Positions 1 to 44,371 of a DNA stretch of 44,371 bases are shown here, piece by piece. The stretch lies in IMG/VR virus record IMGVR_UViG_3300027852_000070, positions 1 through 44,371 of that record. One strand, written 5' to 3'. Each line of letters starts with the position of its first letter. The first letter of the stretch is position 1. The stretch comes from a virus. The notes under the pieces were generated by a model, which saw only the letters and a list, made by a program, of their open reading frames with translations, made no database searches and had not been told where the DNA came from. The position numbers and the translations under genes were made by a program.

Positions 1-101
1 CGACGGAATCAAAACAGCGACGCTCCGAGGCGGCTCCACAGTACCTTTTTTTTATTTATCAATGACTTGCCGAGCCCGCTACGAGCCCGCTACGAGGCGG
101 A
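1..101. other. Non-coding genome-end region, possible cos/pac
   Basis: No gene is visible here. The first 15 bases recur at 44357-44371. GC-rich near-repeats of the form CTMCGAGGCGG occur at about 22-33 and 70-101, the latter including a tandem GAGCCCGCTAC pair, and a related CTCCTACGCGG lies at about 44303-44313. Positions 43-56 hold a T-rich run. Lying just upstream of the terminase genes (across the junction), this is where a packaging site would be expected. That role is inference from position and repeats only. Confidence 0.4.
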
Positions 102-2920: not shown

Positions 2921-3147
2921 ATTACCACCTTGAAAATTTTAACAATTACTTCAACGCATGTACCGAAAGCCCATAATAATGATAAAGTAATAGCCCCATA
3001 AAATACTCTCATTTCATCAATGGTTATACCTTCAGGTATCGGTTTATTTTCATCCACGAAAACCCATCCATATGTATAAGCGGCTAAAAGTACGACCATT
3101 ACGTAAATTATGGAAAATACACTCGCTATTGATATTCTTTCAATCAT
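2917..3147 (-). CDS. Small two-helix membrane protein
   Basis: A 76-residue protein with two hydrophobic helices, about residues 6-28 and 50-74, joined by an acidic loop (DENKPIPEGITIDEM). It overlaps its neighbours by four bases on both sides. No family is recognised. The two-helix topology recalls holins or superinfection-type membrane proteins, but a separate lysis cassette exists at 19150-20879, so I assign no function. Confidence 0.6.
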   Translation of the reverse strand: MIERISIASVFSIIYVMVVLLAAYTYGWVFVDENKPIPEGITIDEMRVFYGAITLSLLWAFGTCVEVIVKIFKVVI

Positions 3148-3440
3148 AATTCCCTATTCCTTCTTTTATGGTCCATGATGTCGCAGCTTCTACAATTGTG
3201 GTCGAGCGGTACACCATGGCGACAACGTTCAGGTTTTAATATCTCCCGCATTTTCGATACTTCCGTTTTCTCAATTTCTGGATCTGATTTACCATGGTCT
3301 ACGTGACCCGGTGTACCGACATTAAACACCGTCTGACAATCCGGCGGATCAAGGTCTGAAATATCCCATGCGAGCCCACACTTAGCGCAATGATACTCGT
3401 CACCGATGACGCGAGCCTGACAGTTCGGGCGACTATTCAT
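3144..3440 (-). CDS. Zinc-ribbon protein with EF-Tu-like GHVDHGK motif
   Basis: A 98-residue protein. The start at 3440 forms an ATGA overlap with the upstream gene; the frame extends further upstream but that part is not needed. Residues C7, C18, C21 and C35 form a zinc-ribbon pattern (YHCAKCGLAWD..DPPDC) that I recognise from small phage proteins. C73, C83 and C86 form a second, partial cluster. Between them residues 40-51 read NVGTPGHVDHGK, almost identical to the P-loop segment of EF-Tu. None of the other GTPase motifs (DxxG, NKxD) is present, so it is not a GTPase. Mimicry of EF-Tu is one speculative reading. Confidence 0.65.
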   Translation of the reverse strand: MNSRPNCQARVIGDEYHCAKCGLAWDISDLDPPDCQTVFNVGTPGHVDHGKSDPEIEKTEVSKMREILKPERCRHGVPLDHNCRSCDIMDHKRRNREL

Positions 3441-3619
3441 CCGAACGGATACCGTCTGATACCTTCGGAAAGGATGAAAATAATTATACAAATGATACCG
3501 ACACCGCACATTAACGCCTCGAGAATGTCATCATATTTATACTGATTACAATAATCACTCGCTGTTATGAGAATTATTCCAACTATTAAAAATAGTATAT
3601 TAATTATTATCCAGATCAT
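3437..3619 (-). CDS. Small two-helix membrane protein
   Basis: A 60-residue, very hydrophobic protein with helices at about residues 2-20 and 34-52 and a short polar loop containing CNQYKYDD. It is coupled to both neighbours by four-base overlaps (stop/start at 3437-3440 and 3616-3619). No family recognised. It is one of several tiny membrane proteins in this operon, which may act on the host envelope. Confidence 0.55.
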   Translation of the reverse strand: MIWIIINILFLIVGIILITASDYCNQYKYDDILEALMCGVGIICIIIFILSEGIRRYPFG

Positions 3620-3843
3620 GATTTATCCCTTTTTTCCCATAAATTACATTCGAGCGGTTCATTATCATAACTCGCAACGGTTCGCACTCGTTCGAGAATG
3701 CATAACGCTTCCCATGCCGACGCAGGTAAATTCGCGAGCGGTATTTCAATCGGTGCGGTACATTCCGCCCGATTACCAAAACGACGACGTCCCGATGGTG
3801 TTGTTTGCCATTTAGCATGTTTACACGTTCTACAATTTTTCAT
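3616..3843 (-). CDS. Small cysteine-rich hypothetical protein
   Basis: A 75-residue protein starting [12 protein letters not shown], with C4, C7, C28, C48 and C66. The N-terminal 'CRTCKHAKW' and the later 'ECNLWEKR' resemble the C..C...C layout of small phage zinc proteins. I chose ATG 3843 because it forms an ATGA overlap with the SEC-C gene's stop; a GTG lies three codons upstream. Function unknown, probably zinc binding. Confidence 0.6.
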
Positions 3844-4046
3844 AAATGACACTTTTTATATTTTAGACCACTACCACATGGACAAGGCTCATTACGACCG
3901 ATTTTTCGTTCGGAGTGCACGATCGGTGTATTTTGTTTATTAAGTTCTTCGCGACTTTTATTTAATAAATATCGATGTAAATCATCCGATGTTTTTTGAT
4001 AATCAATAAATTCTTGAATTTTCCCATTTATTAATATATTGCTCAT
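3840..4046 (-). CDS. SEC-C motif protein
   Basis: A 68-residue protein with a helical N-terminal half and a C-terminal SEC-C motif ([18 protein letters not shown], residues about 50-67). This is the zinc-binding tail found at the end of SecA and in many small proteins. The ligands C-x-C-x(8)-C-H are all present. In SecA the motif binds SecB and ribosomes. A phage version could tether to such partners, but that is inference. Its ATG overlaps the stop of the gene upstream (TAATG). Confidence 0.8.
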
Positions 4047-4183
4047 TAATACCGACCCCTTTTACCTTTTTTACGTTTGTCTTGTTGTTCGAGCAAATGG
4101 CAAAGCGTCGCTATATCGGGTAAATCATCCCCTATCACATCAATCCACGCTTGAAAATCTTCTCTACCATTTCCCATACTCAT
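4046..4183 (-). CDS. Short hypothetical protein (45 aa)
   Basis: A 45-residue frame between the SEC-C gene and the 146-series gene, starting at ATG 4183 with GAGG about eight bases upstream and ending in a TAATG overlap with the SEC-C gene. The sequence is acidic in the middle ([13 protein letters not shown]) and ends with a very basic tail ([11 protein letters not shown]). The ribosome site and coupling argue for a real gene. Function unknown. Confidence 0.55.
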
Positions 4184-4193
4184 ATCGCGATCC

Positions 4194-4601
4194 TCAATCT
4201 CCCGGACAAAACATATTATGTTTTGTTAACCATTTATTTTTTTGTTTATAGGCCGCACCTTTATTAGTAAAAATATCGCTTTCTAACGTGATATCGTACA
4301 TACCGACCTTAATTAAAAACGCTTTTTTCGATACTTTCGTTAATTCCCACCATTTACCGTCGCTACAATAATGTCGATTATCTACTTCAGCATCGACACG
4401 GGCTTCGATGGCGGATACGGTCGATTCGTATTCGGGCCAATCAGACTCGACGACAACGCATTTCAAGGGCTTGCGTCCTTCGTCATGGCGATGATGTTCG
4501 ATAGCTTGAGCAACATTCGCGAGGGTTAATTGAGTCTCGAGGCTGATATATTTTTCAATATCCGACCGCTTTAATACTAAATATCTATTTTCAATCTCCA
4601 T
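4194..4601 (-). CDS. Hypothetical phage protein starting MEIENRYLVLKRSD
   Basis: A 135-residue protein. I chose the ATG at 4601, which overlaps the upstream gene by 11 bases, because the residues before it are the upstream gene read in another frame. The N-terminus 'ENRYLVLKRSDIEKY' is a pattern I associate with conserved small phage proteins of unknown function. The remainder mixes beta-prone stretches and acidic residues with no visible catalytic motif. Confidence 0.6.
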   Translation of the reverse strand: MEIENRYLVLKRSDIEKYISLETQLTLANVAQAIEHHRHDEGRKPLKCVVVESDWPEYESTVSAIEARVDAEVDNRHYCSDGKWWELTKVSKKAFLIKVGMYDITLESDIFTNKGAAYKQKNKWLTKHNMFCPGD

Positions 4602-4806
4602 CGAGCGTACATCCCATCGAACAACGAGCCAAATCCGCAATACGTTTCAATTTACCGATTTTCGTTTCGGGATCTTTAACTAATTTAACGAACGCTTCTT
4701 TCGCCTCGACGACGTTGTAACTGTATCGATTCGTACATTCGAGACAAACGCCATCAATTAGACCACTATCCCAAATCCCGCAAATTTCGCAATTTCCCGT
4801 ACTCAT
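4591..4806 (-). CDS. Small zinc-binding-like protein
   Basis: A 71-residue protein with an N-terminal zinc-ribbon pattern, C6-x2-C9 ... C21-x2-C24 (NCEICG...VCLECTN), followed by a lysine-rich helix and a further pair of cysteines near the end. No named family. It overlaps the upstream stop by four bases and the downstream start by 11. It is another of the cysteine-rich proteins that dominate this operon. Confidence 0.6.
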   Translation of the reverse strand: MSTGNCEICGIWDSGLIDGVCLECTNRYSYNVVEAKEAFVKLVKDPETKIGKLKRIADLARCSMGCTLDGD

Positions 4807-11910: not shown

Positions 11911-11937
11911 TTTTTTATTATTTCTCGTTATTTCATG

Positions 11938-11966
11938 TTGACAAGGGAGATACTACGGCATAAAAT
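11938..11966 (+). promoter_or_regulatory. Rightward early promoter
   Basis: TTGACA at 11938-11943, a 17-base spacer and TAAAAT at 11961-11966, with the family extension CGTTATTTCATG upstream. It drives the operon beginning at 12001 (ribosome site AAGGAAA just upstream). It overlaps the leftward promoter on the opposite strand. Confidence 0.75.
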
Positions 11967-11978
11967 CACTATCGTCAA
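11950..11978 (-). promoter_or_regulatory. Leftward early promoter
   Basis: On the minus strand TTGACG (11978-11973), a 17-base spacer and TAGTAT (11955-11950), preceded by CGTTA. It drives the helicase operon. It lies over the rightward promoter, so the two cannot be occupied by polymerase at the same time. Confidence 0.65.
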
Positions 11979-12000
11979 TAACGAAAAGGAAATTAAAACA

Positions 12001-12801
12001 ATGAACAAATCAATTAGTTTAACAGTCGATACCGACGACTATAACGCATTAACCCGCGCTTCGGATATGTTGCACGGCATGGCTCAAGATATAAAAAAAT
12101 CGGGCTGTAAAGGTTGTATCGATGAAGACAAAGAAAAAGAAGCCGACGAAATACTCGTTAAAGCTGGTGTCAAATCTGACAATGATAATAAATCATTAGA
12201 AGGTATCGAACACGTAGGGAATGAAGGAAGTGAAACTTCAGCCGCAGACGCATTCGCAACTAATGACGATAAACCGGAAAAAATCAACGTCGGTACCGAA
12301 ATCGGTGTTTCGGTTGGTATAGGTGGTGGTGTCGAACTCGATAGTCAGGGTTTACCATGGGACGTACGAATCCACAGTAAAAATAAGTCGAAATTGGCTA
12401 AAGATCAATCATGGAAGAAAAAACGCGGCGTCGATGCTGCATTAATCGTACAAGTCGAAGCCGAACTTCGCGCAGCAATGGCGACGGCACCGGCTCAAGT
12501 TGAAACGTCATCCCCCACGACCGAAACACCAGCGGCACCGGCTACCCTTGAGACACCAGCAAAACCAGCGGCACCGGCTACCCTTGAGACACCAGCAAAA
12601 CCAGCGGCACCGGCTCAAACTGAGACATTAACATTCCCCGACTTGATGGGTAAAATCACGACGGCAATGGGTGCGGGCACGTTGACTCAAGAAATGATCA
12701 TGGTTGTTATTAATCCTTTAGGATTAGCGTCGTTACCATTAGTCGCGGCACGTCCTGATCTTATTCCTGAAATCAATACGGCGTTGTTTCCGAATGGGTA
12801 G
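12001..12801 (+). CDS. GLPWD-motif protein with Ala/Pro/Thr-rich linker
   Basis: A 266-residue protein. I chose ATG 12001 because AAGGAAA lies upstream; the frame opens earlier with a TTG. An acidic N-terminal half leads to ELDSQGLPWDVRIHSKNKSK (112-131) and a WKKKRGVDAALIVQVEAELR segment, a combination I recognise from conserved phage proteins encoded beside replication genes. A linker of Ala/Pro/Thr repeats (36-base DNA repeats at about 12528-12615) leads to a small C-terminal helical domain. Nearly the same GLPWD motif ends the family B polymerase of this phage, which suggests a shared binding partner. The molecular function is unknown. Confidence 0.7.
   Translation: MNKSISLTVDTDDYNALTRASDMLHGMAQDIKKSGCKGCIDEDKEKEADEILVKAGVKSDNDNKSLEGIEHVGNEGSETSAADAFATNDDKPEKINVGTEIGVSVGIGGGVELDSQGLPWDVRIHSKNKSKLAKDQSWKKKRGVDAALIVQVEAELRAAMATAPAQVETSSPTTETPAAPATLETPAKPAAPATLETPAKPAAPAQTETLTFPDLMGKITTAMGAGTLTQEMIMVVINPLGLASLPLVAARPDLIPEINTALFPNG
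12528..12615 (+). repeat. 36-base tandem repeats within a gene
   Basis: About 2.4 copies of a 36-base unit (ACCAGCGGCACCGGCTACCC... plus CTTGAGACACCAGCAAAA). They encode a 12-residue Ala/Pro/Thr-rich linker unit in the GLPWD-motif protein. They keep the reading frame and probably vary in number between strains. Confidence 0.8.
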
Positions 12802-15616: not shown

Positions 15617-15770
15617 ATACGATCCCGAAACACTGAAAATGATGTCATCGAGACTTTTAGCCGCTAAAGCTAACAATGACGACCGATATTTTCAATTTAT
15701 CATGACAATGTCGATTTATACGAATTTATCGACTCAACAAATCGCAGAGTTCGCCAATGCGGGGGCGTAA
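15609..15770 (+). CDS. Short hypothetical protein upstream of the polymerase
   Basis: A 53-residue helical frame (MSKYDPETLKMMSSRLLAAKANND...) starting at ATG 15609 inside the end of the previous gene and stopping at 15770 inside the start of the polymerase gene. Overlaps at both ends suggest translational coupling. It has no cysteines and no membrane segment. Function unknown; a small polymerase-associated protein is possible but unsupported. Confidence 0.5.
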   Translation: MSKYDPETLKMMSSRLLAAKANNDDRYFQFIMTMSIYTNLSTQQIAEFANAGA

Positions 15771-18144
15771 GCAATGCGACCCGGTCAGTGGATGCGGTAA
15801 GTTCTACAAGCAACAATTCAACGAATGCCCCTCGTGTGGGGCTTCTGAAGCGTTTAGTAACCTGATCCCATTCAATCCTCGTGATTGGTCCTACGATTTA
15901 GAATCATATCCGAATATATTTACCGCTGATTTTAAACATATGAATTCGGGCGCTACGGCGTTTTATGAAATAAGCGATCGACGTAATGATCTCGATGGTT
16001 TATTAGTGTTTTTATTTGCATTAAAGCAATCAAATTCCCGAATGATTGGATATAACAATATTGGATATGATTATCCGATGTTACATTTTATATTAGAAAA
16101 CGCGCATTTATCCCCCGATCAAACCGACTTATATAATAAATCCATGAGTATTATCAACACCCCATGGGAACGTCGATTCGATAATGTGATATGGGATAAT
16201 GATATTCATATCGTACAAATCGATCTCTATAAAATACATCACTTCGATAATGATGCGCGTCGTACTTCATTAAAAATGCTTGAATTCAATATGCGCTTAG
16301 ATAATATAAGTGATCTACCCTACCCACCCGGCACCGTATTAAACGATTTAGAAAAAAACGTATTAATTGAATATAATCATGACGATGTCGATGCGACCGA
16401 GAAATTCGCGATCGAATCAATCGAAATGATCGAATTCCGTGAACAATTAAGCGAAAAATACGGTCAAAATTTCCTTAATCATAGTGATAAAAAAATCGGT
16501 ACAGATATTTTCGTCAACAAACTCGAAGCGTTCGCACCGGGTACATGTTACGCCCGCGACCACAATAACAAGAAAATAAAACGACAAACGCCTCGAAGTT
16601 CTATCAATTTGGGTGAAATAATATTCCCATACATCGAATTTAAAGTACGCGAATTCGAACTCGTAAAACAATGGTTATCATCGAAAGTTATCACCCAAAC
16701 GAAGGGCGTCTTCGAATTCATAACGGTATCGGCTGAAATGGCCTTTATCATGCGTCATGACTTAGTAAAAGTGTATGGATTATCGTTAGACGACGTACCG
16801 AGCATATACGATGTTAAGAATATTAAAACATTATTAAATAAGGGTATTCCCCTCGATCAATGTTTTGATGATATAAAAAATCGAACCGATTTGCATAATT
16901 TTAAATTCGTAAGCGGTGTAAAAGATAAATCGGGTTTAAATTGTATTGTCGATGGGTTTCGATACGACTTCGGTACCGGTGGGATACATGGTTCGATTGA
17001 TTCGACGATTGTATGTTCCGACGACGATGGTGAGTTGTGGGATTGGGACGTGGGCGGTTATTACCCAACGTTAGGTAGTGTAAACAAATTATTCCCCGAA
17101 CATTTGAGCGAACAATTCGGTATTGTTGATAAAGAACTCGCGATCGAACGTAAGCAATACGACAAAGGGACCGCATTAAATAACTCGATAAAACTTGCCC
17201 GAAACGGTGCGTACGGTGATTCGAATAATAAATACAGCGTGTTTTTTGACCCACAATATACAATGTCAATAACTATTAACGGTCAGTTACTTTTATGTAT
17301 GCTTGCACAACATTTGATTGATATCCCCGGTTTAAAGATGATCCAGATCAATACGGATGGTTTAACCGTTAAATGTCCGAGGCAACATATCGACACCATG
17401 AAAAAAATATGTAAATGGTGGGAGAATTACACTTGTTTAGAATTGGAAAGCGTTATTTATAAACGTATGTTTATTCGCGATGTGAATAATTATATCGGTG
17501 AATATAAAGACGGAAAACTCAAATCAAAAGGCGCGTACGTACATAAATCGAAGGAATCGCAGGGTCCGAAATGGACACCTAGCGACATGGATTGGCACCA
17601 AAACCACAGCGCCCTTGTCGTCCCTAAAGCCGCTGAAGCCGCTCTCGTACACGGTAAAGATATTCGCGAATTCATCACCAATCATAACGATATATTCGAT
17701 TTCATGCTTCGTACGAAGGTGGGACGGTCCGATAATCTTATGATCTCCGATGCTGCAGGTAACGAACGAGAATTACAGAAAATAACGCGATATTATGTAA
17801 GCGTTGACGGTGGATCATTAACTAAAATCAGTCCCCCGACGAAAGGGTATCAAGTCGGACAATGGAAACGAGCGACGAAGTTATCCGATCAATATTACAA
17901 AAGTGTGATCGCTGAATTGAAAAGTACAACCGCTGAAGATATAGAACTCGACTCGCTCGGTTTACCGTGGGACGAACGTATCAACACGAAAAATCGTTCT
18001 AAATACGAAATACGTCGTACCGGTGTTAATGCTGGGCAATTAGTCGCACCCTGTAACGACATTAAAGACGCTGATCGGAATAATATCAATTTTGAATATT
18101 ACATCGCCGAAGCTGAAAAACTTGTTAAACCACTGAGGAATTAA
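15757..18144 (+). CDS. Family B DNA polymerase with N-terminal zinc ribbon
   Basis: A 795-residue replicative polymerase. C7, C13, C24 and C27 form an N-terminal zinc ribbon. The 3'-5' exonuclease motifs are SYDLES (D47, E49), GYNNIGYDYPML (D105) and YNHDD (206-210). The polymerase motifs are A DVGGYYP (431-437, catalytic D431), B KLARNGAYG (479-487) and C INTDG (531-535). Motif C carries NTDG in place of the usual DTDS, so a single Asp stands there. The conserved FGTGGIHGS segment is at 405-413. The C-terminus ends with ELDSLGLPWDERINTKNRSK (729-748), almost the same as a motif in the protein encoded at 12001. It overlaps the 53-residue gene by 14 bases. Confidence 0.85.
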   Translation: MRGRKQCDPVSGCGKFYKQQFNECPSCGASEAFSNLIPFNPRDWSYDLESYPNIFTADFKHMNSGATAFYEISDRRNDLDGLLVFLFALKQSNSRMIGYNNIGYDYPMLHFILENAHLSPDQTDLYNKSMSIINTPWERRFDNVIWDNDIHIVQIDLYKIHHFDNDARRTSLKMLEFNMRLDNISDLPYPPGTVLNDLEKNVLIEYNHDDVDATEKFAIESIEMIEFREQLSEKYGQNFLNHSDKKIGTDIFVNKLEAFAPGTCYARDHNNKKIKRQTPRSSINLGEIIFPYIEFKVREFELVKQWLSSKVITQTKGVFEFITVSAEMAFIMRHDLVKVYGLSLDDVPSIYDVKNIKTLLNKGIPLDQCFDDIKNRTDLHNFKFVSGVKDKSGLNCIVDGFRYDFGTGGIHGSIDSTIVCSDDDGELWDWDVGGYYPTLGSVNKLFPEHLSEQFGIVDKELAIERKQYDKGTALNNSIKLARNGAYGDSNNKYSVFFDPQYTMSITINGQLLLCMLAQHLIDIPGLKMIQINTDGLTVKCPRQHIDTMKKICKWWENYTCLELESVIYKRMFIRDVNNYIGEYKDGKLKSKGAYVHKSKESQGPKWTPSDMDWHQNHSALVVPKAAEAALVHGKDIREFITNHNDIFDFMLRTKVGRSDNLMISDAAGNERELQKITRYYVSVDGGSLTKISPPTKGYQVGQWKRATKLSDQYYKSVIAELKSTTAEDIELDSLGLPWDERINTKNRSKYEIRRTGVNAGQLVAPCNDIKDADRNNINFEYYIAEAEKLVKPLRN

Positions 18145-18149
18145 AAAAA

Positions 18150-18833
18150 ATGAATAAAATTAATGTATTAGATCATGGATTTGTAGGATTAGTAGATCAT
18201 ATGGGGTCGGATTTATCAATCTCCCGTAATGCTCGTGTTTCATACGATGCAGAATGGCGAGCGGGCGAAGATAGCGGAAGCGACACCCGATTAATTAATT
18301 ACTTATATTCTAATGGACATAACACACCGTTCGAAGCGGTAACATTTACATTTGATGTCAAGGCTCCGATCTTTGTGTTCCGCCAATGGCACCGCCATCG
18401 TACACAATCGTTCAATGAATTAAGCGCCCGTTATCGCGAATTACCTGAAGAATTCTATATTCCTGAACCAGAACATATCGGTACACAAAATAAAGATAAT
18501 AAACAGATGCGCGATATTGGTGGCGACATTGATTTCAATCATACAGATGTAGTCAGAAATTTAATGCATATCCAAAATTCAAACGCATTTAATACTTATC
18601 ATTTACTCATTGAAAAAGGTGTACCCCGCGAAATTGCCCGATCCGTTTTACCTGTGGCAACTTATAGCCATATGTTCGCGACGGTTAATTTACATAATTT
18701 ATTTAGATTTTTAGCTGAACGATTGCATCCACACGCTCAATATGAGATCCGCGTATATGCCGAAGCGATGCTCGAATTAATTCGTCCGATTGTACCCGTA
18801 GCGGTTGCAGCATTCGAAAAAGGTTTAAAATAA
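18150..18833 (+). CDS. thyX: FAD-dependent thymidylate synthase ThyX
   Basis: A 227-residue flavin-dependent thymidylate synthase. The signature RHRxxSxNExSxRY is complete at residues 82-95, with the substrate-binding arginines and Ser87/Ser92. It makes dTMP from dUMP using methylene-tetrahydrofolate and FAD. The last codons are GGT TTA AAA TAA. They contain the tandem slippery heptamer U UUA AAA immediately before the stop, and the -1 frame beyond encodes a ribonucleotide-reductase-type domain. The product may therefore be made both alone and as a C-terminal fusion. Confidence 0.92.
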   Translation: MNKINVLDHGFVGLVDHMGSDLSISRNARVSYDAEWRAGEDSGSDTRLINYLYSNGHNTPFEAVTFTFDVKAPIFVFRQWHRHRTQSFNELSARYRELPEEFYIPEPEHIGTQNKDNKQMRDIGGDIDFNHTDVVRNLMHIQNSNAFNTYHLLIEKGVPREIARSVLPVATYSHMFATVNLHNLFRFLAERLHPHAQYEIRVYAEAMLELIRPIVPVAVAAFEKGLK

Positions 18834-19177
18834 CGAACGATAACGAACGTCCGAGTAAAACTTATAAATTACGCGCACCGGGTATAAGTGATCACGCTTT
18901 ATATTTTACAGTTGTCGGAGAATCAATACCCGAGGCGTTTTTTATTAATAGTAAAGAACTTGAATCGTTTCAGTGGATTACATCACTTATGACGTCATAT
19001 CATCGACAGGTCAAGATCGGTACACCTATCGAATCAATAATTAATGATATGAAAGAGACATTCGACCCAAATGGTTCGTATATTATCCCCGATGGTACCG
19101 GGCGCGAAGTTCATAGCGTGGTACATCATTTAGGGTTAATATTAGAAAGTCATTGTAAGACAATCCCTACATTTTGA
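18830..19177 (+). CDS. TSCPD/NrdJ-C-like domain read by -1 frameshift from thyX or from an AUA start
   Basis: The -1 frame continues for 115 codons. It gives the C-terminal domain of coenzyme B12-type ribonucleotide reductase (NrdJ) and stand-alone TSCPD proteins: YKLRAPGISDHALYFTV, then EAFFINSKELESFQWITSL, then FDPNGSYIIPDG and a final helix. No ATG, GTG or TTG occurs between the preceding in-frame stop (18743) and the ATG at 18989, which is in mid-domain. Reading must start by slippage on U UUA AAA (18824-18830), giving a 342-residue fusion. The alternative is an AUA codon at 18830, which overlaps the thyX stop and has AAAAAGG six bases upstream. A catalytic RNR subunit is absent from the window. 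Confidence 0.7.
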   Translation: MTNDNERPSKTYKLRAPGISDHALYFTVVGESIPEAFFINSKELESFQWITSLMTSYHRQVKIGTPIESIINDMKETFDPNGSYIIPDGTGREVHSVVHHLGLILESHCKTIPTF

Positions 19178-29639: not shown

Positions 29640-29885
29640 TTACCCCTTCGGTTTACTATGTTCTTTAAGTTCATTACGTAACCCGTCGTAAAAAAAACGG
29701 ATCTCATGTGCTTTTAATGTCCGAGCGTCCGGTAAACCCGGAAAATCGCGGCATATTTGGAGTAACATTTCCTTATATACCGCATGGTAAACGTGTCCGC
29801 CTTTTGGGATACTTTCATCAGCCCCGTTACGAACTAAAAGCGTCCGAACTAGTCCATTAAAAGCAAAAACAATGCCATACAGATT
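29640..29885 (-). CDS. Tail assembly chaperone C-terminal extension, -1 frame
   Basis: An open frame of 81 codons in the -1 frame relative to the chaperone gene, running past that gene's TAG (29851-29849) to TAA at 29640. It lacks a normal start codon until well inside, but its sequence (DFPGLPDARTLKAHEIRFFYDGLRNELKE) fits the T-part of tail assembly chaperones. These are normally made by ribosomal frameshifting between the chaperone and the tape measure. No textbook slippery heptamer is present; GUUUUUG or UUUUA just before the stop is the best candidate. Confidence 0.75.
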   Translation of the reverse strand, partial: NLYGIVFAFNGLVRTLLVRNGADESIPKGGHVYHAVYKEMLLQICRDFPGLPDARTLKAHEIRFFYDGLRNELKEHSKPKG

Positions 29886-30274
29886 TTAATATCTGGACCA
29901 ACTAAACTGGCAAATATATTCGGGTGTACTTTGCACATGTCACCCATCATGGCATATGTAGCAGCCACATTTTGATTTTTCTTTTTACCGTCCGTAGCCA
30001 TGCCCGACGCGCCCGAATATTCGTGGAATGTAATTGCGTCTTTATGTTTAGATCGGGAATGTTGGGGACAATAAACCGCTTCACCGTTGTCATTAATAAC
30101 TAATGAACCGGCCTGTAATGCTCGTAAAATTCGACGTTTTTGTTTTTCAAATCCGCTGACATCTTCTTCATTCATAACAGAAGTATCAACATCGAGATCC
30201 ATCATTTCAGCAAATCGATCGAATTCCGCTTCCGCGACTTCAAGTGCGACGATTGGTTCTTTTTTATCACTCAT
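29849..30274 (-). CDS. Tail assembly chaperone (Mu gp41-like, G part)
   Basis: A 141-residue acidic protein located between tail tube and tape measure, the fixed place of tail assembly chaperones. It has an N-terminal acidic helix (ALEVAEAEFDRFAEMM), a KQKRRILRALQAGSLVINDNGEAVY beta-hairpin region seen in Mu-like members, and a C-terminal segment ending ICMALFLLLMD just before the TAG. The -1 frame beyond the stop encodes the T-part. It is preceded by a probable terminator at 30292-30342. Confidence 0.8.
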   Translation of the reverse strand: MSDKKEPIVALEVAEAEFDRFAEMMDLDVDTSVMNEEDVSGFEKQKRRILRALQAGSLVINDNGEAVYCPQHSRSKHKDAITFHEYSGASGMATDGKKKNQNVAATYAMMGDMCKVHPNIFASLVGPDIKICMALFLLLMD

Positions 30275-39883: not shown

Positions 39884-39911
39884 AGTATACATAATAAAAA
39901 ATAAATGTAAA
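39884..39911 (-). promoter_or_regulatory. Candidate leftward promoter of the structural operon
   Basis: On the minus strand TTTACA (39911-39906), a 16-base spacer and TATACT (39889-39884). It would transcribe the gpW-like gene at 39825 and the head and tail genes behind it. It lacks the TGTTGAC extension of the early promoters, which fits a different class. Confidence 0.5.
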
Positions 39912-39926
39912 ATAATCGTTATTTTA

Positions 39927-39946
39927 TGTTGACGGCGGTGTCAACA
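39927..39946. promoter_or_regulatory. Palindromic operator over the -35 box
   Basis: TGTTGAC-GGCGGT-GTCAACA, a perfect seven-base inverted repeat with a six-base spacer, covering the -35 hexamer. Binding of a dimer or a two-headed repressor here would block polymerase. An identical copy lies at 40747-40766. The binding protein is not known. Confidence 0.65.
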
Positions 39947-39957
39947 TAGCATATTAT
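39929..39957 (+). promoter_or_regulatory. Sigma-70 promoter of the first cassette
   Basis: TTGACG (39929-39934), a 17-base spacer and TATTAT (39952-39957), with upstream ATTTTATG and downstream ACTGAAACGAA. It drives the genes at 39998 and 40281. A perfect palindrome overlaps the -35 box. Confidence 0.75.
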
Positions 39958-39997
39958 TACCTTACTGAAACGAACAACGACCCGGAGAAACACAAAA

Positions 39998-40246
39998 ATG
40001 AATACTTTTACTAAATGGCTAGAAACTTTCTTAGAAGAAAAGAACGCACCCGCTAAATCATGGGAAATCGACGCGAACGGTACTACTCACTTCATCGATT
40101 CGGATGTCGTTATCGAAGCAATCAAAACCACATCGGGCCAAGAACAAGCACAAATTAAAAATACTTTGGTAATGATTGATTTCAAAAATGGCGACATTAA
40201 TCATTTTTTCGAACATTTGGCACGCGGTTTAGTCGCTAACTACTAA
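39998..40246 (+). CDS. Small early protein of the first cassette
   Basis: An 82-residue acidic protein (MNTFTKWLETFLEEKNAPAKSWEI...FIDSDVVIEAIKTTSGQEQAQIKNTLVMIDFKNGDINHFFEHLARGL). I recognise the pattern from small conserved phage proteins of unknown function. It has a ribosome site (CCGGAG) and the cassette promoter directly upstream. It is followed by a GNRA-loop hairpin and a second gene. Strong promoters in front of tiny genes suggest host-takeover roles, which is inference. Confidence 0.7.
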   Translation: MNTFTKWLETFLEEKNAPAKSWEIDANGTTHFIDSDVVIEAIKTTSGQEQAQIKNTLVMIDFKNGDINHFFEHLARGLVANY

Positions 40247-40280: not shown

Positions 40281-40730
40281 ATGAAGTATATCTTAGTAAC
40301 AGGCGGCCAAACTGGTAGAAAATTACATTCAGCACATAGCGGATCGAGTTGTTTGTCGTGCGGCCATTGGACGAAAACCGCCGTTACACGTTTTCAAGTT
40401 GCCGATAATATCGAACCGGAAACACTCGAAAAATTCAAAAATGACGGGTTTGAATTATGCGAAAAATGTTTTCCTCAATATGCCGATACACAAATTAAAA
40501 AATATACGGGACCGAAGTATCATTTAAAAAATTTACGTCCTGAACTAGTCGAAGGTAGAATCCTCGCTAAATTATTCAGGGGTTCGGCTTGTGGTCGTAA
40601 AGTCGATTATTTATCAAAATTTAATGATTTTAAAAAAGCATATAAGGAAGATCCGGACAAGTGTTGCAAAGGCTGTACGAAAAGAATGTTCGAAATAATG
40701 GTGCAAGTTCAGGAAATGAAAATAAATTGA
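40281..40730 (+). CDS. Cysteine-rich protein of the first cassette
   Basis: A 149-residue protein with several cysteine pairs: C24-x2-C27 (SSCLSCGHW), C60-x2-C63 (LCEKCFP), and C132, C133 and C136 (DKCCKGCTKR). It probably binds zinc. No named family. It opens with MKYILVTGGQTGRKLHSAHSGSSC and has basic patches that would suit nucleic-acid binding. It lies behind the duplicated hairpin and ribosome-site unit. Function unknown. Confidence 0.65.
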   Translation: MKYILVTGGQTGRKLHSAHSGSSCLSCGHWTKTAVTRFQVADNIEPETLEKFKNDGFELCEKCFPQYADTQIKKYTGPKYHLKNLRPELVEGRILAKLFRGSACGRKVDYLSKFNDFKKAYKEDPDKCCKGCTKRMFEIMVQVQEMKIN

Positions 40731-40746
40731 AAATATCGTTATTTCA

Positions 40747-40766
40747 TGTTGACGGCGGTGTCAACA
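40747..40766. promoter_or_regulatory. Palindromic operator over the -35 box, copy 2
   Basis: The same TGTTGAC-N6-GTCAACA palindrome as at 39927-39946, so the two cassettes are likely controlled together. Confidence 0.65.
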
Positions 40767-40777
40767 TAGCATATTAT
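40749..40777 (+). promoter_or_regulatory. Sigma-70 promoter of the second cassette
   Basis: TTGACG (40749-40754), a 17-base spacer and TATTAT (40772-40777), the same as the first cassette. It drives the genes at 40811 and 41057. Confidence 0.75.
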
Positions 40778-40810
40778 TACCTTACTGAAACGAATTAAGG
40801 AATAAACAAA

Positions 40811-41023
40811 ATGAATACTTTTACTGAAAACCAAGAATTATCGGCTCGCTCTATCTGTGACAATGATTGTATTTTTCGTGCGACGGTTGTTAAGCGTACA
40901 GCGAAGACCGTTACTATTAAGGACGACCGCGGCGAACGTCGCTGCAAAATCCATAATCGCGGTGACGGTGAGTTTATTTTCCCATATGGTCAATATTCAA
41001 TGGCCGCTACTTTCAACGCATAA
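40811..41023 (+). CDS. Small protein of the second cassette
   Basis: A 70-residue protein sharing only its first five residues (MNTFT) with the corresponding gene of the first cassette. The rest is a compact beta-rich fold (CIFRATVVKRTAKTVTIKDDRGERRCKIHNRGDGEFIFPYGQYSMAATF), possibly SH3-like. It looks like a different gene swapped into a duplicated expression cassette. Function unknown. Confidence 0.65.
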   Translation: MNTFTENQELSARSICDNDCIFRATVVKRTAKTVTIKDDRGERRCKIHNRGDGEFIFPYGQYSMAATFNA

Positions 41024-44283: not shown

Positions 44284-44371
44284 GGGAGGAGTGTAGCGCT
44301 CCGACTCCTACGCGGTCAAGTTTTGGTCAAACTTTGGAAAGTGTGCGAGGGGTGATCGACGGAATCAAAAC
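44284..44371. other. Genome-end non-coding region
   Basis: No gene is visible. It contains GCGCTCCGACTCCTACGCGG (44296-44315) and a direct repeat GGTCAA (44314-44319 and 44327-44332). The final 15 bases equal positions 1-15. Together with 1-101 it forms one continuous intergenic block upstream of the terminase genes. Confidence 0.5.

Follow-up and report, generated by a model that had tools for sequence, protein, structure and literature searches.

The window (the whole 44,371-nt stretch of viral DNA analysed, IMG/VR record IMGVR_UViG_3300027852_000070) encodes a genuine NrdJ C-terminal (TSCPD / IscU-like) domain, NrdJ-C, in the −1 frame directly behind thyX, and our reading of the sequence suggests that 18830–19177 is an independent cistron for this free-standing domain, most likely started at an AUA codon at 18830 in the stop overlap (Table 1). 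A preliminary description of this DNA had rightly framed two candidate mechanisms, slippage and an AUA start, and had headlined the first, a ThyX extended by −1 frameshifting. Our results disfavour the extension, given that relatives carry the domain as a separate gene, that the AUA falls in their initiator column, and that the heptamer is of a eukaryotic type and has no stimulator, while the initiator column, the Shine-Dalgarno (SD)-like site and the overlap geometry make the AUA start the better of the two mechanisms.

Table 1. Features at and around the junction of thyX and the NrdJ-C gene (window positions)
Feature	Position	Strand	Evidence
DNA polymerase gene, upstream	15757..18144	+	phrog_1252 1.9e-189
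thyX, flavin-dependent thymidylate synthase, 227 aa	18150..18833	+	PF02511 (Thy1) 1.5e-52, TIGR02170 3.7e-53; stop TAA 18831-18833
AAAAAGG, SD-like; last base 6 nt 5′ of AUA	18817..18823	+	sequence
U_UUA_AAA heptamer (TTTAAAA) closing thyX, without stimulatory structure 3′	18824..18830	+	sequence; folding; motif ranking of PMC4066793
AUA, proposed start codon; 4-nt ATAA overlap with thyX stop	18830..18832	+	initiator-Met alignment with L106, L107, L112, L114; overlap geometry
Perfect 10-bp tandem duplication (ATAACGAACG x2) across stop and start	18830..18849	+	sequence
Phage-type NrdJ-C (TSCPD / IscU-like) gene, 115 codons + stop	18830..19177	+	phrog_23565 2.3e-8; relatives; model

The 3′ end of thyX reads AAA GGT TTA AAA TAA. 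In the −1 frame, a TGA closes at 18745, and no further stop occurs from 18746 until the stop codon at 19175–19177. This frame contains no ATG, GTG or TTG until an ATG at 18989, midway through the domain. The layout reported previously, with the heptamer at the end of thyX and a start-less −1 frame of 115 codons, was confirmed from the sequence. In a scan of open frames lying mostly outside the gene calls, the NrdJ-C frame was among the few long ones in which even the longest reading from a standard start codon covers far less than the whole frame; the extension of the tail chaperone gene (29640–29885) was another.

The translation of 18830–19174 (P0001, 115 aa) matched phrog_23565, 'ribonucleotide reductase', in a profile search (2.3e-8), and by tblastn it retrieved only the C-termini of class II (B12-dependent) ribonucleotide reductases (RNRs) of named phages (roseophages) and bacterial plasmids, at 28–34% identity; Pfam labels the matched region of those phage RNRs as TSCPD. 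The search of the −1 frame with the Pfam TSCPD profile (PF12637), as proposed in the preliminary description, gave no score on P0001 itself but did score on nine of the 14 family members (best 6e-7), and phrog_23565 matched all 14. An AlphaFold2 model of the phage protein (pLDDT 87.7) resembled the C-terminus of the RD-1410W1-01 RNR with a TM-score of 0.76 (E 4.3e-7). On the profile, tblastn and model evidence, the NrdJ-C/TSCPD identity first assigned to the domain was right. A sequence search of solved structures returned none, and a fold search of the PDB returned IscU as its top match, which was not significant (E 0.43) and is in agreement with the 'IscU-like' fold published for class II RNR tails, a domain whose role is unreported (PMC9669993). 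Weak Pfam matches to S6PP_C and dATP-dGTP_PPHyd were below the cut-off and were discarded. Substitutions relative to the related sequences amounted to 0.57–0.71 at third codon positions versus 0.11–0.24 at second positions, a bias far beyond chance, indicating that selection has constrained the domain at the protein level.

Three scans of viral contigs yielded 18 distinct relatives of the phage-type domain (L106–L110, L112–L115, L117–L120 and L125–L129; L111 and L116 are near-duplicates), at 51–71% identity, except for the remote L129 at 40%. The phage-type sequences clustered apart from the NrdJ and NrdJb tails (support 99/98), with L129 grouping outside, and two scans of genome contigs found no family members in bacterial genomes. 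In 17 of the 18 relatives the domain is free-standing with its own ATG, GTG or TTG; in the exception, L118, a single frame (3986–4789) encodes NrdJ-C followed by a PRA-PH (MazG-like) pyrophosphohydrolase domain. Relatives with an ordinary start for the domain are what the preliminary description had itself named as evidence against its proposal. No thyX was found in the relatives' records that were searched, which may be fragments (for L125–L129 the search covered the flanks). In L110 and L112, which belong to the same lineage and have a polymerase 60–66% identical to that of the window, the order polymerase, small gene, NrdJ-C is kept with no thyX in the records, indicating that thyX is a variable neighbour. 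A comparison of about 80 ThyX loci, an approach that had been suggested for thyX ends, showed varied downstream genes, many of them in ATGA-type overlaps, and neither a fusion to NrdJ-C nor adjacency to it, which ruled out a fusion conserved among thyX relatives.

Other neighbours were seen in single relatives. In L115 (3989–5277) NrdJ-C shares 1 nt with the beginning of a downstream thyA (PF00303, E 1e-75), which places another, different thymidylate synthase beside the family, and a dUTPase lies near L127. Together with thyX in the window and the pyrophosphohydrolase in L118, this context fits nucleotide metabolism. The RNR barrel (PF02867) was not found in the window, as the preliminary description had correctly stated, nor in the relatives' records G002–G015, most of which may be incomplete; with the same profile, no NrdJa partner was found in the same genome across these sequences. 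In the large phage contig of L130 (190,918 bases), the end of an RNR barrel, preceded by an intein-like end, occurs with a separate NrdJb-like frame that has a zinc ribbon (3142–4510).

The relatives also bear on where the gene starts. They begin with ATG, except that L118 and L125 use GTG and L126 uses TTG, and the initiator Met of L106 (MDTDQPAPSKTYKL), L107 (MNTDTPSPSKTYKL), L112 (MTIEWIKPEKTYKL) and L114 (MNTDEPSDSATYKL) falls in the column of the window AUA (ITNDNERPSKTYKL). The start overlaps the upstream stop by 4 nt in six relatives, as ATGA in L108, L114, L120 and L129, GTGA in L125 and TTGA in L126; the upstream frames are unrelated, and none of the six has a tandem heptamer near the upstream stop. 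A 4-nt overlap of this kind, which is a common arrangement, places a gene in the −1 frame by itself, and the ATAA of the window is the same layout. An AAGG at SD distance precedes only 0.6% of the ATA triplets in window genes, and the AUA at 18830 has both the homologous initiator column (four relatives) and AAAAAGG 6 nt upstream. We infer that ribosomes would start at this AUA, one base ahead of the thyX stop, probably aided by AAAAAGG and by ribosomes terminating on thyX, to give a 115-aa protein, probably in low amounts; the ACG at 18833 could serve as an alternative start. Such a start within a stop–start overlap would be a rare gene layout, one that is missed by gene callers based on start codons.

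AUA start codons are very rare. In Staphylococcus aureus, ribosome profiling (Ribo-Ret) identified AUA starts in infC, ccpN and citZ, and reporters of the ccpN and citZ AUA gave about 10% of the AUG level, with ccpN reaching up to 30% in rich medium (PMC13009471). The S. aureus genes and the window site are alike in combining AUA with an SD sequence, whereas the former were demonstrated by Ribo-Ret and reporters and the latter is read from sequence and overlaps an upstream stop. The S. aureus sites have extended SD motifs (PMC13009471), stronger than AAAAAGG, and expression from the window AUA may thus be low. In an Escherichia coli frameshift reporter, a low-level signal was proposed to come from an SD-like sequence that directs initiation at an AUA lying 7 nt 3′ of it in the −1 frame (PMC4066793), which is a direct precedent for reading the window site as an AUA start rather than as slippage.

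The frameshift proposal holds that programmed −1 slippage on U_UUA_AAA yields, as the main product, a 342-residue ThyX–NrdJ-C fusion that joins dTMP synthesis to an RNR-interaction domain. The heptamer stands in the correct frame directly 5′ of the thyX stop, and the −1 frame is open over 115 codons without a standard start. Tandem heptamers whose second triplet is AAA or TTT occupy 61 of the 12,975 in-frame positions of window genes, so that the chance of finding one at a given gene end is about 0.5%, and its presence at exactly the start-less junction, a coincidence of that order, is a point against the AUA start. Nine of the 61 are TTTAAAA, however, showing that this heptamer is not avoided, and we found neither the heptamer site nor a fusion conserved in the relatives, which start the domain as a free-standing gene with no thyX adjacency. 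The RNA 3′ of the heptamer was less folded than its shuffles (z +1.19; 180 of 200 folded at least as well) and weaker than most local windows. Neither type of stimulator, a structure 5–8 nt downstream or an upstream SD-like element, could be assigned, as AAAAAGG abuts the heptamer directly. Moreover, the efficient E. coli motifs are V_VV.A_AA.R, H_HH.U_UU.Y, U_UU.A_AA.G, C_CCC_CCC and A_AA.G_GG.G, while U_UU.A_AA.A belongs only to the eukaryotic class D_DD.A_AA.H (PMC4066793). We consider the fusion unlikely as the main product, although slippage may be a minor route.

Elsewhere in the window, the tail assembly chaperone gene (29849–30274, minus strand) is continued by a start-less −1 frame (29640–29885, NLYGIVFAFNGLVRTLLV...), and this phage's classical G-GT programmed frameshift is likely located at 29640–30274. 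The tail-chaperone region of Shewanella phage SppYZU01, whose terminase (82%) makes it the closest named relative, has the same layout; this counterpart sets the tail-chaperone site apart from that at the thyX end, which has none. SppYZU01 has neither thyX nor NrdJ-C at the corresponding place. Its genome is 43.6 kb, and this size, together with a 15-bp direct repeat at both ends of the window (1–15 and 44357–44371), suggests that the window is a near-complete genome; the IMG/VR class of the record is linear. A repeat of about 119 bp with 87% identity (39898–40015 and 40719–40829) lies ahead of two small genes (40281 and 41057), which share a near-identical leader, GGCGARAGCCCCGAAGGATCTTAAA, and a 36-bp tandem repeat of 2.4 copies (100%) occupies 12528–12615, inside the gene at 11935–12801.

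The junction itself shows signs of change. Because the 10-bp unit of the duplication in Table 1 does not make a whole number of codons, a single copy would put the domain in another frame behind a stop, indicating that the junction was reworked. The simplest origin would be an ATGA or similar overlap that was altered at the junction, and one G-to-A change would convert AUG to AUA and UGA to UAA together, so that the AUA may be a decayed AUG. An AUA where AUG is expected, together with this duplication, could also mean that the gene start was lost, by the base change or via the duplication, leaving a recent and poorly expressed remnant. Against this, all 115 codons are intact and all invariant family residues are kept, the branch is not unusually long, and AUA is still able to initiate. 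The protein-level constraint seen in the codon positions would be compatible with a very recent loss of the start, but we regard a remnant as improbable. It is very improbable that the real phage has an ATG at 18830 and that the AUA reflects a mistake in sequencing or in the consensus, or else a minor variant, even though a single base (G/A at 18832) would restore an ordinary ATGA overlap: substitution errors are uncommon in assembly consensus, and the same base occurs in two records. The sole second copy (IMG/VR 3300002180_000039) has no differences over 33,886 bases and the same end, and this twin contig, identical over its whole length, was rejected as independent confirmation. An independent cistron started at the AUA remains the reading that we prefer.

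With regard to function, it is possible, and we propose it tentatively, that the phage protein docks on a host class II RNR, its likely target, where the NrdJ tail or NrdJb sits, and tunes the enzyme. NrdJb binds NrdJa tightly and relays electrons via its C-terminal cysteines (PMC4520616). The phage protein ends short of the zinc ribbon and the cysteine pair found in NrdJ and NrdJb; both the ribbon and the redox cysteine pair are absent from P0001 and A4, with no invariant cysteine, and the protein therefore cannot serve as a reductant. The IscU-like part alone could occupy the NrdJb site and would then alter the oligomer state, activity or reductant access of the RNR. A broader proposal, that the free RNR tail of RNR-less phages binds to and reprogrammes the host B12-dependent RNR and that slippage or AUA coupling here ties its dose, or the domain in a physical sense, to ThyX, seems doubtful. 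RNR-less phages that carry the domain alone, some of them beside thyX, thyA or dUTPase or with it joined to a pyrophosphohydrolase, offer a small, testable protein for finding the domain's binding partner.

The protein resembles several known proteins to different degrees. Two small 'ribonucleoside-diphosphate reductase' proteins of uncultured Caudovirales, A0A6J5KVY3 (136 aa) and A0A6J5L9T7 (184 aa), have a similar predicted fold (TM 0.79 and 0.65, respectively) but are distant (25% and 17% identity), RNR being their database name only. NrdJb, the small subunit of the split class II RNR of Pseudomonas and Aeromonas (L121, 230 aa), is likewise a separately encoded NrdJ tail, but it is produced together with NrdJa and bears redox cysteines as well as a zinc finger, whereas the phage protein lacks these features and the searches of its phages gave no RNR. 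In comparison with NrdJ, the phage domain is encoded alone, without the catalytic barrel, the zinc ribbon and the C-terminal cysteine pair, and it forms a separate clade on a long branch, with three inserted residues (PDG) and an HH motif. It is nevertheless 30–36% identical to the NrdJ tails (PF12637), with a predicted fold that is alike and with the YKL, FINSK, FQW and FDP.G motifs common to both.
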